Shown here in pieces: positions 10,870 through 25,069 of a stretch of 49,420 nucleotides of DNA (its first letter is position 1; the number at the start of each line of letters is the position of its first letter). This DNA is from Chloroflexota bacterium (GTDB lineage Bacteria; Chloroflexota; Limnocylindria; P2-11E), in contig JAJYLV010000007.1 in the NCBI GenBank assembly GCA_021787445.1, positions 1 through 49,420 on the forward strand. The letters run 5' to 3'. Both the position numbers and the translations under genes were made by a program. The notes below the pieces were generated by a model. It saw only the letters and a list, made by a program, of their open reading frames with translations. It ran no database searches and had not been told where the DNA came from.

Positions 10870-11855
10870 CCCGCGGCCGCCGCCAGGCGGGTGCGGCCGG
10901 CGAGCTGCCACAGCGGGAACAGGACGCGCGTCACGGGCGTCTCGAGGGCGCCGACGAACGCGACGACCTCGCCGCCGAAGCCGAGCTTGAACTGCTCGAC
11001 GCCGCTCAGCGGATCGTCCCGGCCACCCGACTCGGTGATCCCCCACATGTCGTAGCGGCGCACTCCGAGCTGGCGCATGCGCATGAGCGCGCGCCACTTG
11101 AGCAGGTAGAAGGGACGGTCCTCGCCGTGCGTGCCGCTCCAACCGCCGTACAGCTCCCAGGCGCGCTCGCCCATACGCGCCAGCATGAGCCCGCCGACGT
11201 CCTCGCCGCCGACGGCGGCCATGAGCGTGTGCAGCCGATCGCCGAGGCCGTCGCGGAGGCGCTCGAGGTACCCGAGCGAACGGACGGCGAAGCCGTCGCG
11301 CTCCCCCACGCCGCGCAGCAGCCGGTGGAACCGCGCGAGGTCGTCCGTCTCCTCGGTCGCGACGCCCGCGCGCTCCGCTTTGTGGATGTACTGCCGCGTC
11401 TTCTTCCGCATCGCCGCGAGGAGCTCGTCCGGCTCGCGCGACGGATCGAGGATCAGCGTGCGGCCCGGCTGGACGTGGACGGACGCGACGCCGACGCCCG
11501 CCCGCGCGAGCGCCCGACGGAGATCGTCGCGCGGTGCCGTCTCCGGATCGCAGAGCAGCGCGGCGCACCGCCCTCCGCGCGCGAGGCTGCGGCGCAGCGC
11601 CACGATCGCGTCGGGGAGCGCGGCGTCGTCGACGAGCGGGCCGCGCGGGCAGTACGCGACCCTGATCCCGAGCGGCAGGGCCTTCTCGAGGACCTGCGCC
11701 ACGCCGCCGTCGAGCACGAAGCGACGCGCGCTCCACCCGGTGAGGGCCTTCGCCCGCGCCCACCCGACGGTCTGAAGGACGTGCCCGCGCGCGGTGCCCA
11801 GGACGAGGTCGTCCCAGGCCGCTTCCTCCGCGGCGGAGGCGGTCCGAGCCTCTAT
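10866..11855 (-). CDS. FemAB/FemX-type peptidoglycan aminoacyltransferase-like protein (second copy; start codon uncertain: ATA 11855 or GTG 11933)
   Basis: MRKKTRQYIHKAERAGV; WELYGGWSGTHGEDRPFYLLKWRALMRMRQLGVRRYDMWGI; QFKLGFGG. Confidence 0.82.
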   Translation of the reverse strand: MEARTASAAEEAAWDDLVLGTARGHVLQTVGWARAKALTGWSARRFVLDGGVAQVLEKALPLGIRVAYCPRGPLVDDAALPDAIVALRRSLARGGRCAALLCDPETAPRDDLRRALARAGVGVASVHVQPGRTLILDPSREPDELLAAMRKKTRQYIHKAERAGVATEETDDLARFHRLLRGVGERDGFAVRSLGYLERLRDGLGDRLHTLMAAVGGEDVGGLMLARMGERAWELYGGWSGTHGEDRPFYLLKWRALMRMRQLGVRRYDMWGITESGGRDDPLSGVEQFKLGFGGEVVAFVGALETPVTRVLFPLWQLAGRTRLAAAAG

Positions 11856-21358: not shown

Positions 21359-21724
21359 CTAGCGGCGCTTCTCCCGAAGGGTGGCGGCTTTTCCGACCCG
21401 CTCTCTGAGGAAGTAGAGGGCCGCTCGCCTCGCGTGCCCGTGCCGCGTCACCTCGATCTTCTCGACGCGCGGCGAGTGGAGCATGAAGGTGCGCTCGACA
21501 CCCACGCCGCTCGCGACACGGCGGACCGTCACCTGCTCGTCGAGCCCGCCGCCGCGCACGCGGAGGACGGTCCCTTCGTAGTTCTGGAGCCGCTCGCGGT
21601 TGCCCTCGATGACGCGCACGGAGACACGGACCGTATCCCCCGGACGGATCTCCGGGAGGTCGGTCTTCATCTGCTCCTGGGCAAGCTGTCTGAGGGCGTC
21701 GTCCATCGTCAGTGTCATTGTCAC
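21359..21724 (-). CDS. rplS: 50S ribosomal protein L19
   Basis: [49 protein letters not shown]. Confidence 0.96.
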
Positions 21725-21747: not shown

Positions 21748-22746
21748 CTACGCCTTCGACCGGCGCAGGCGATCGATGATCGTCACGTGGGAGACACCGA
21801 AGTGCTTCGCCAGGTCGCGGATCGTCATCCCGGTCTTGCGCATCCGATGCACTTCGGCCGCCGTGGGGCCGCGCGGCGCCCCCTTCGCCGGGCGCATCCG
21901 CACACCCGCGTCGCGCAGGCGTGCCCGGACAGTCGCCGGTGACACGCCGAAGCGCGCCGCGATGCGGTACGAGCCGACCCCCGAACGGTACGCGCGCACG
22001 AGCTCCTCGTCGCTCACCCGCGGGCGACGAGCGGCGGGCCGCGGCAGCCGCGCCCGCTCCTCGGGCGTCAGGTCGGCGGAGGGCAGGAGATCGGGGCGAC
22101 GCTCGGCCGTTCGGTTGATCGATCCCGCGCGGCGCCACTCCGCGATCGCCTTGTGGTCTCCGGAAAGGAGCACCGGCGGCACGCGCCGTCCCTCGTAGTC
22201 GACGGGTCGCGTGTACTGCGGCCCTTCGAGGAGCCCGCCGGTGTGCGACTCCTGCACGAGGGACGCCTTCTCGATGACACCCGGCACGAGCCGCGTGACC
22301 GCGTCGACGACGACCATCGCGGGGAGCTCGCCCCCCGTCAACACGTAGTCGCCGATCGAGATCTCCTCGTCGACGTCGCCCTCGATGACGCGCTCGTCGA
22401 CCCCCTCGTAGTGCCCGGCCACCAGGACGAGGTGCGCGAGATCCGCGAGCCGGCGGGCGGTCGGTTCGTCGAACGGCCGCCCTTGAGCGGACAGGAGCAC
22501 GACGTGCCCATCACCTGCGCGCACCGCCCGGATCGCGCGGGTCAGCGGCTCGGGCCGCATGACCATCCCCGGGCCGCCGCCGTACGGGGTGTCGTCGACG
22601 GTCCGGTGCCGGTCCGCCGCCCAGTCGCGTACGTCGTGGACGTGGACCGCGACCAGGCCCGCGTCCTGCGCGCGCTTCACGATGCTCTCGGCGAAGGGGC
22701 CGTCGAACATCCGCGGGAAGAGCGTGAGGACGTCGATGCGCATCAC
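21748..22746 (-). CDS. trmD: tRNA (guanine-N1)-methyltransferase TrmD with C-terminal tandem HTH extension
   Basis: [63 protein letters not shown]; residues ~245-285 and ~293-330 read as HTH motifs. Confidence 0.94.
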
Positions 22747-23270
22747 GCCTCCTCCTGAGGCGCGACGACGATGCGTCCTCCGCCGAGGTCCACCTCCCGG
22801 ACGACGGACTCGAGCATCGGCAGCAGGATCTCGCGGTCACCGTCACGCACGACGAGCACGTCGGCGCCTCCGGCACGCAGCACCTCGCGCACCTCGCCGA
22901 GGCGCTCCCCGCCGACGGTCCAGGTCTCGAGGCCGACGAGGTCGTCCCACAGATACTCACCCTCGCGGCGCGCCGCGGCGCGCGGGACGCGCAGCTCGCG
23001 GTCGCGGAGCCTCTCGGCGGCGCTGCGGTCGGCGACGCCCTCGAACGCGACGATCGGCGCGTCCGACGTGCCGCGTACGGACGCGACGACGAGGCTCTCG
23101 CGATCCGTCGTCAGGCGCGAGCCGACGCGGAAACGCTCGGCGGCGCGATCGGTCATCGGCTCCACGCGGACCTCGCCACGGATCCCGTGCGGCGCGCGCA
23201 CGACGCCGACGACGACGTCGGCCGAACGCCGATCGGTCTCAGTCGATCTCGAGGTCGACCTTGGCGCCAT
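22743..23270 (-). CDS. rimM: ribosome maturation factor RimM
   Basis: [46 protein letters not shown]. Confidence 0.92.
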
Positions 23271-23496
23271 CGCGCGTCGCCACCACCTTCAGCAGCGCCC
23301 GGACGGCTTTCGCCATGCGGCCTCCGCGGCCGATGACCTTTCCGACGTCGGGCTCGGCGACGCCCAGATGCAGCTTCAGGGTGTCCCGGTCGTTCGTCTC
23401 CGTGACGACGACGGCGCTCGGGTCCTCGACGAGCTGACGCGCGATGTGCTCGAGGACCTTCCCCTCCCTGGTCGCGGGAGCTGCGGCGTCGGTCAT
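23239..23496 (-). CDS. khpA: KH-domain RNA-binding protein (KhpA/YlqC-like)
   Basis: GVAEPDVGKVIGRGGRMAKAVRALLKV; position between rpsP and rimM. Confidence 0.88.
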   Translation of the reverse strand: MTDAAAPATREGKVLEHIARQLVEDPSAVVVTETNDRDTLKLHLGVAEPDVGKVIGRGGRMAKAVRALLKVVATRDGAKVDLEID

Positions 23497-23762
23497 CGGA
23501 TGACCGCGGGGACCTCGGCGTCGGGGATGCCGGCCTTCACGAGAAGGTCGCGCGCCGTCTCGGTCGGCTTCGCGCCGGACTTGAACCAGTGCTTCGCGCG
23601 CTCGAGATCGACGACGAGCTCGACGGGCTCACGACGCGGGTCATAGTGCCCGAGCGTCTCGATGAAGCGTCCGTTGCGGGGCGCGCGGGAGTCGGCCACG
23701 ACGAGCCGATAGGTCGGCTGCTTCGTCTTCCCTTGGCGGCGCAGGCGGATATGTACGGCCAC
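23493..23762 (-). CDS. rpsP: 30S ribosomal protein S16
   Basis: MAVHIRLRRQGKTKQPTYRLVVADSRAPRNGRFIETLGHYDP; GTG start preceded by GGAGG. Confidence 0.96.
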   Translation of the reverse strand: MAVHIRLRRQGKTKQPTYRLVVADSRAPRNGRFIETLGHYDPRREPVELVVDLERAKHWFKSGAKPTETARDLLVKAGIPDAEVPAVIR

Positions 23763-23764
23763 TA

Positions 23765-25069
23765 CTACCTCCGGAGAGGTAAATGGTATGGCAAGCGCCC
23801 ACCCTTGGCCATACCGCCCAGCTGCTTCATGAGCTTCCGCATCTCCTCGAACTGCTTCAGCAGCTGATTGACGTCCGACACCGTCGTCCCCGACCCGCGC
23901 GCGATGCGCTTGCGCCGCGAGCCGTTGACGATGGACGGGTCGGCCCGCTCGCCCCTGGTCATCGACGAGATGATCGCCTCGACCTTCCTCAGCTCCCGCT
24001 CCGCCTCGGGGCCCTGCGGCAGCTGCTTCGCGAGCTGCCCCATCCCGGGGATCATCTTGAGCAGGTCGCCCAGCGGCCCCATCTTCTTGAGCTGCTGCAG
24101 CTGGGTGTAGAAGTCGTCGAGCGTGAACCGCGCCTCGAGGAGCTTCTTCGCCTGCTCCTCCGCCTCCTTCTGGTCGACGACCTCCTGCGCCTTTTCGACG
24201 AGCGTGACGACGTCGCCCATGCCGAGGATCCGCTGCGCCAGGCGGTCGGGGTGGAAGACCTCGATGGCGTCGAGCTTCTCACCGGTCCCCATGAGCTTGA
24301 CCGGGATACCCGTGGCGGCCCGGATCGACAGCGACGCGCCGCCGCGCGCGTCGCTGTCCACCTTCGCCAGCACGAGCCCCGTGATCGGCAGCCGAGCCTT
24401 GAACGCCGACGCCGCGTCGACGGCGTCCTGGCCGGCCATCGCATCGACGACGAGGAGGACCTCGGTCGGATGGGTCGCGGCCACGATGGACTCGACCTCG
24501 GCCATCATCGCCTCGTCGATGTGAAGGCGCCCGGCCGTGTCGACGATCACCGTGTCGCCGCCGTCGAGCGGCACGCTCTTCGGGTCGGCCCGCCGGACGG
24601 GTAGCCCGAGCTGCTTCCCGAGCGCCTCGAGCTGATCCATCGCCGCGGGGCGGTGGACGTCGACGGTGACGAGGACCGGCTTCCGCCCCTGCTTCCGCAG
24701 GACGTTGGCGATCTTGGCCGAGGTGGTGGTCTTGCCCGACCCCTGCAGCCCGACCATCACGATGACCGTCGGCGCCGTCGTGGCCCGCTCGAGCGGTGAC
24801 GCCTCGCTCCCCAGCATCTCGACGAGGGCGTCGTGCACGATCTTCACGACCTGCTGCGCGCCGCTGACGCTCTGGACGACCTGCTGGCCGATGGCGCGCT
24901 CGCGTACCGTGGCGACGAGCTGCTTCACGACCTTGAAGCTGACGTCCGCTTCGAGGAGCGCGACGCGGACGTCGCGCAGCGCCTCCTCGAGGTCCGCCTC
25001 CGTGACCCGGGGCCGGCCCTGGAGCGTCGCGAACGTGGCCGCGAGGCGGTCCTGGAGCTGCTCGAACAC
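23765..25069 (-). CDS. ffh: signal recognition particle protein Ffh
   Basis: GLQGSGKTTTSAKIANVL; VDTAGRLHIDEAMMAEV; M-domain SRRKRIARGSGTTVSDVNQLLKQFEEMRKLMKQ; GTG start at 25069. Confidence 0.94.
   Translation of the reverse strand: MFEQLQDRLAATFATLQGRPRVTEADLEEALRDVRVALLEADVSFKVVKQLVATVRERAIGQQVVQSVSGAQQVVKIVHDALVEMLGSEASPLERATTAPTVIVMVGLQGSGKTTTSAKIANVLRKQGRKPVLVTVDVHRPAAMDQLEALGKQLGLPVRRADPKSVPLDGGDTVIVDTAGRLHIDEAMMAEVESIVAATHPTEVLLVVDAMAGQDAVDAASAFKARLPITGLVLAKVDSDARGGASLSIRAATGIPVKLMGTGEKLDAIEVFHPDRLAQRILGMGDVVTLVEKAQEVVDQKEAEEQAKKLLEARFTLDDFYTQLQQLKKMGPLGDLLKMIPGMGQLAKQLPQGPEAERELRKVEAIISSMTRGERADPSIVNGSRRKRIARGSGTTVSDVNQLLKQFEEMRKLMKQLGGMAKGGRLPYHLPLRR

Follow-up and report, generated by a model that had tools for sequence, protein, structure and literature searches.

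A tRNA m1G37 methyltransferase fused to a conserved tandem helix-turn-helix module throughout an order of Chloroflexota

The essential tRNA m1G37 methyltransferase TrmD is found in nearly all bacteria and serves as a drug target. The enzyme is a dimer (PMC5372744). Fusions of TrmD to other domains are known, notably TrmD-Tm1570 (PMC11187310; PMC1829167), and in the trigger enzymes BirA and PutA an enzyme is joined to a DNA-binding fold and works on both its substrate and DNA (PMC6978683). In the open-access literature, we found no report of a TrmD fused to helix-turn-helix (HTH) units. The window that we analyzed, a 49,420-nucleotide stretch of a Chloroflexota contig (JAJYLV010000007.1), contains a gene of this kind, with the following parts:

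21748..22746, minus strand: trmD-HTH fusion gene, 332 aa from a GTG start; stop codon at 21748-21750
22045..22743, minus strand: TrmD core, residues 1-233, made up of the SPOUT domain and the normal TrmD C-terminal domain
22018..22044, minus strand: variable linker, residues about 234-242, from the TrmD C-terminal helix to HTH1; low conservation, dN higher than in the flanking parts
21892..22014, minus strand: HTH unit 1 (HTH1), residues 244-284, delimited by profiles, conservation and AlphaFold
21757..21867, minus strand: HTH unit 2 (HTH2), residues 293-329, with recognition helix SHVTIIDR; delimited by profiles, conservation and AlphaFold

The frame is continuous, with no internal stops. An alternative start, the ATG at 22743, gives 331 aa, and residue numbers count from this ATG. 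The gene encodes one protein in which a complete TrmD is followed by a C-terminal tandem HTH module, as the initial annotation proposed and as the continuous frame and the matches to TrmD and HTH profiles bear out. That annotation had set exactly the limits of HTH1 given above; it also located HTH2 correctly, with ends that were off by a codon or two from a unit of about 21751-21867.

The enzyme part matches the TrmD profiles NF000648 (307 bits vs a cut-off of 220, E=4.9e-92, residues 2-221), TIGR00088 (301 bits, E=3.3e-90) and Pfam tRNA_m1G_MT (PF01746, E=6e-64), which together span residues 2 to about 228. The conserved helix that closes the core corresponds to the final helix of E. coli TrmD, as the alignment reaches the start of that helix (LT-EEQARL in E. 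coli, LTPEERARL in the fusion protein). Active-site residues E113 and R151 (E. coli E116 and R154) and the tRNA motif SGDH at 194-197 (SGxH) are kept. The position of E. coli D169 is occupied by a glutamate (E165), which is also found there in 19 of 52 scorable tail-less TrmD ORFs. Since trmD is present in a single copy, making this protein the sole TrmD of its genome, the essential activity should reside in the fusion protein. Judging from these sequence features, the fusion protein is probably an active tRNA m1G37 methyltransferase.

The tail, about 100 aa holding the two HTH units, is strongly basic (26 K+R vs 10 D+E in 111 aa). On the whole protein, HTH_7 and HTH_23 scored 30.7 and 30.0 bits, against curated cut-offs of 23.8 and 24.6. 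When the tail was searched alone, each profile matched two stretches (HTH_7, 35.3 bits, E=1.3e-8; HTH_23, 33.4 bits, E=3.7e-8). The families matched by the tail, namely resolvase HTH_7, HTH_23, HTH_10, Psq and TyrR HTH, are DNA-binding families. AlphaFold modeled the tail as six helices forming two tri-helical units (25-33, 38-45 and 49-58, followed by 75-83, 88-95 and 99-110 in tail numbering) with a mean pLDDT of 81.5. Two HTH folds, predicted from the letters in the initial annotation, were therefore recovered both by the profile search and by structure prediction. The mutual placement of the two HTHs is uncertain in the tail model (pTM 0.41), and the full-length model is of moderate quality (pLDDT 73.9, pTM 0.48).

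Using Foldseek with the tail model, we obtained no PDB match at E<0.001. The top match was the CRISPR-repeat-binding protein 2lvs (E=0.088), which was also first by sequence profile (E=0.01); next in Foldseek were DNA-binding domains of the tandem homeodomain, paired-domain and mariner types. Two kinds of phage protein align in register with both HTH units: D5-like transcriptional regulators (phrog_323) and the DNA-binding protein phrog_664. Other Chloroflexota encode stand-alone tandem-HTH proteins (L152, L153 and L155) that align across both units, with L152 matching the tail at E=2.6e-12 in the genome search and at 97% probability and 36% identity in hhalign. The DNA-binding label of these relatives reflects annotation or profile recognition, not a test of binding. 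Close to the genes for L152, L153 and L155 lie those of large proteins that combine N-terminal TPR-like repeats with low-complexity linkers. In its own genome, the tail has no paralogue below E=0.17. We rejected a viral donor of the tail, as 39 pattern matches in viral contigs gave no confirmed case.

Within the order, every complete trmD that we examined carries the tail in-frame. These are 26 full-length proteins, 25 from one family and one from its sister family, and the fusion spans nine genera. The only exceptions are three genes cut by contig ends (G002, G010 and G023), and in G002 and G010 the remaining piece with the HTHs sits on a second contig. A tail profile found 28 of 177 class genomes, all of them in the order and at one place each; this search found no tail in any other family of the class. 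In 400 sampled genomes of the phylum, the profile recovered only order members and weak relatives outside TrmD, with no tail on a TrmD outside the order. In those families, TrmD matches lack the HTHs and mostly stop at about query residue 225-250; matches that extend further run across stop codons. In the TrmD-core tree, a single branch (support 94/94) separates all HTH-bearing sequences from the rest, suggesting that the fusion arose once, in the order's ancestor, and was then passed on vertically.

The initial annotation had raised the possibility that relatives would carry the HTH as a separate ORF, with a frameshift or stop loss joining two genes in this sequence. The homologue search revealed that relatives in the order always carry the HTH inside the trmD ORF. 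The same architecture occurs in independent assemblies from many projects, and retention of the tail in 25 orthologues from other genomes is far beyond chance. Because independent genomes show the same open frame, we rejected an assembly or sequencing artefact, the probability of which is close to nil.

We determined how strongly the tail is conserved relative to the enzyme. Mean pairwise column identity among the 26 proteins was 0.77 for the core, 0.82 for HTH1 and 0.77 for HTH2, compared to 0.57 and 0.51 for the linkers. In HTH1, L248, Y252, S254, G255, G257, S258, Y259, R260, G266, S268, V272, R273, R275, L276, R277, G280 and R284 are invariant in 26/26 proteins; in HTH2, the same is true of P293, V298, G305, R309, A312, G316, V317, S318, H319, V320, T321, I322 and R325. 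The invariant set includes residues of both recognition helices (S268, V272, R273, R275, L276 and R277 in the first; G316-I322 and R325 in the second). For 12 close pairs, dN/dS (Nei-Gojobori) ranged from 0.01-0.20 for HTH1 and 0.03-0.26 for HTH2, compared to 0.04-0.21 for the core, with HTH values within the core range for most close pairs. By these measures, purifying selection acts on both HTHs with roughly the strength seen for the catalytic core, while the linkers drift. The canonical turn and fixed recognition helix suggest one fixed nucleic-acid target.

This selection analysis also bears on whether the tail could be a functionless hitch-hiker, neutral or selfish, that arose by read-through into the HTH of a mobile element. 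Its relatives are indeed mobile-element and phage-type HTH proteins. However, a tail of that kind is difficult to reconcile with retention across both families and all nine genera, with dN/dS values that are mostly well below 0.25, or with the invariant residues, and we regard it as very improbable.

The initial annotation had also remarked on the lack of a separate ylxM in this region. We found no match to PF04297 (YlxM/UPF0122) at E<=0.001 in the genome itself, and 81 genomes of the class, those with a tail-less TrmD among them, gave no match that exceeded the cut-off. Since no YlxM turned up in the sampled class, the remark has no bearing on the fusion, and we rejected the tail as a substitute for a lost YlxM.

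What might the tandem HTH do? With a probability of about one half, we favor a bifunctional TrmD that carries a sequence-specific DNA-binding module, and place this ahead of tRNA binding by the HTHs. That the tail is conserved like the enzyme itself suggests that TrmD of this order also binds DNA. TrmD dimers bind AdoMet and tRNA, so the fused protein would present four HTHs on a dimer that could respond to both ligands. It may work in a trigger-enzyme mode, like BirA and PutA, in which the protein would methylate tRNA and also bind a fixed DNA site according to its ligand state. Such binding would tie the expression of translation genes to the supply of tRNA or AdoMet, with its own operon as a possible target. 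More tentatively, an essential tRNA-modifying enzyme may have become a DNA-binding regulator throughout the order, with the AdoMet and tRNA states of TrmD setting transcription of translation genes. If this is true, the fusion would be a trigger enzyme sensing the methylation status of tRNA.

Several observations count against DNA binding. The low-confidence placement of the HTHs and the lack of a PDB match at E<0.001 are among them, as is the lack of an operator-like dyad common to the order upstream of rpsP (below). Moreover, the strongly basic tail would suit tRNA binding too, and SPOUT enzymes usually gain nucleic-acid domains of the RNA-binding type (PMC1829167). The tandem HTH could thus be an added tRNA- or ribosome/rRNA-binding domain with no role on DNA, in which case the HTHs would touch tRNA outside the anticodon stem-loop and raise the affinity or specificity of m1G37 methylation. 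Since the C-terminal domain of TrmD contacts the tRNA D-stem (PMC5372744), a tail behind this domain should lie near the tRNA. In SPOUT enzymes, added domains mostly bind nucleic acid (PMC1829167), and the second domain of the TrmD-Tm1570 fusion may help substrate binding (PMC11187310). However, while RNA binding, offered as an alternative in the initial annotation, fits the basic tail, the relatives recovered by profile are DNA-binding proteins. The two units find their matches among DNA-binding HTH families and align in register with tandem DNA-binding proteins. The canonical turn and invariant recognition helices also resemble base readout of one fixed DNA sequence. To our knowledge, TrmD elsewhere needs no HTH-type extra domain. 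We consider a role confined to RNA plausible but less likely than DNA binding.

If the DNA-binding reading is correct, one special case is autoregulation, in which the fused TrmD would bind an operator before rpsP and repress the rpsP-khpA-rimM-trmD-rplS cluster when its tRNA substrate is short. The genes around trmD are:

23493..23762, minus strand: rpsP (bS16), first gene of the conserved cluster
23239..23496, minus strand: KH-domain protein of the khpA type between rpsP and rimM, named from sequence and position
22743..23270, minus strand: rimM, overlapping the trmD start (from the ORF list; order kept in relatives)
21359..21724, minus strand: rplS (bL19), directly downstream of trmD

The trmD-HTH gene lies inside the cluster that it would control, and the order ffh, rpsP, khpA, rimM, trmD, rplS, rnhB is kept in genomes of the order. 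A -10-like box, TACCAT, is present about 20 bases upstream of the rpsP start and is common to the family. Regulation of the rpsP operon was listed as unknown in a 2024 review (PMC10931766), a gap that such a regulator would fill. Across 18 non-redundant genomes, we sampled motifs in the stretch of 120 bases that precedes rpsP, with shuffles and HTH-less sister families as controls. The sampled motif beat the shuffles and consisted of the -10-like box (TACCAT/TACACT/TATCAT) plus loosely kept bases, with no dyad. Palindromic models of widths 12 and 16 exceeded shuffles but equaled the HTH-less control families, giving no shared site; a model of width 20 reached 74.7 vs 57.0 in the HTH-less control. 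Motif and inverted-repeat searches in 20 genomes of the order revealed no shared dyad or repeat upstream of rpsP, and no inverted repeats there were clearly above shuffles except in the single genome of the sister family. In some members, other genes separate ffh from rpsP, and no clear site appears there either. The best motif is a promoter-like box. Autoregulation of this operon, which the initial annotation had suggested, is unsupported, and we consider it unlikely, although the operator search was limited in size and the binding site may be located in another region.

In the sister-family genome (G028), a 10-bp perfect inverted repeat, CAGACCCTTT-31-AAAGGGTCTG, is located 18 bases before rpsP (L135, about 11014-11065, plus strand). 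This repeat, known from one genome, beats all 40 shuffles; it could be an operator, as autoregulation would require, or a leader hairpin. In the window, a small stem, ACCTC-TCCG-GAGGT, may form where ffh ends (23763-23785, minus strand) and would enclose the Shine-Dalgarno sequence of rpsP; ACCTCTCCGGAGGT is conserved in two further genomes of this genus (L126 and L127).

Comparison with known systems places the fusion protein within TrmD (NF000648, PF01746) by its complete core, active-site and SGxH motifs, operon position and single copy. Unlike TrmD, it adds a C-terminal tandem HTH of about 100 aa, and the best-matching stretch of each of the solved TrmD structures listed ends before this tail. 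Both TrmD-Tm1570 (PF01746-PF09936; PMC11187310) and the present protein have a lineage-specific C-terminal domain; in TrmD-Tm1570 this domain is another SPOUT methyltransferase, whereas here it is an HTH module. A further fusion, which differs from TrmD-HTH, occurs in the actinobacterium Nocardioides sp. SYSU D00038 (L089), where TrmD carries about 140 aa beyond the core that we named, by eye, a GNAT-like acetyltransferase domain.

The tail itself resembles Cbp1 (2lvs; NF040595), a tandem HTH protein that is its best solved-structure neighbor by sequence and fold, though weakly; unlike Cbp1, it scores 22.9 bits against an NF040595 cut-off of 140 and has only two units. Both HTHs also align in register with L152, L153 and L155, but these are separate ORFs of roughly 100-126 aa that are unlinked to trmD. 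The match to phrog_323 is likewise in register, but that phage profile has 319 positions and shares only the HTH part. Being order-wide and strongly selected, the fusion suggests that tRNA m1G37 methylation is tied to either gene regulation or tRNA recognition. The analogy to BirA and PutA (PMC6978683) concerns a possible working mode, not membership: as in those proteins, an enzyme is joined to a DNA-binding fold, recognized here by profiles and predicted structure. Unlike in BirA and PutA, the enzyme here modifies tRNA, and its DNA role is predicted from sequence and model.
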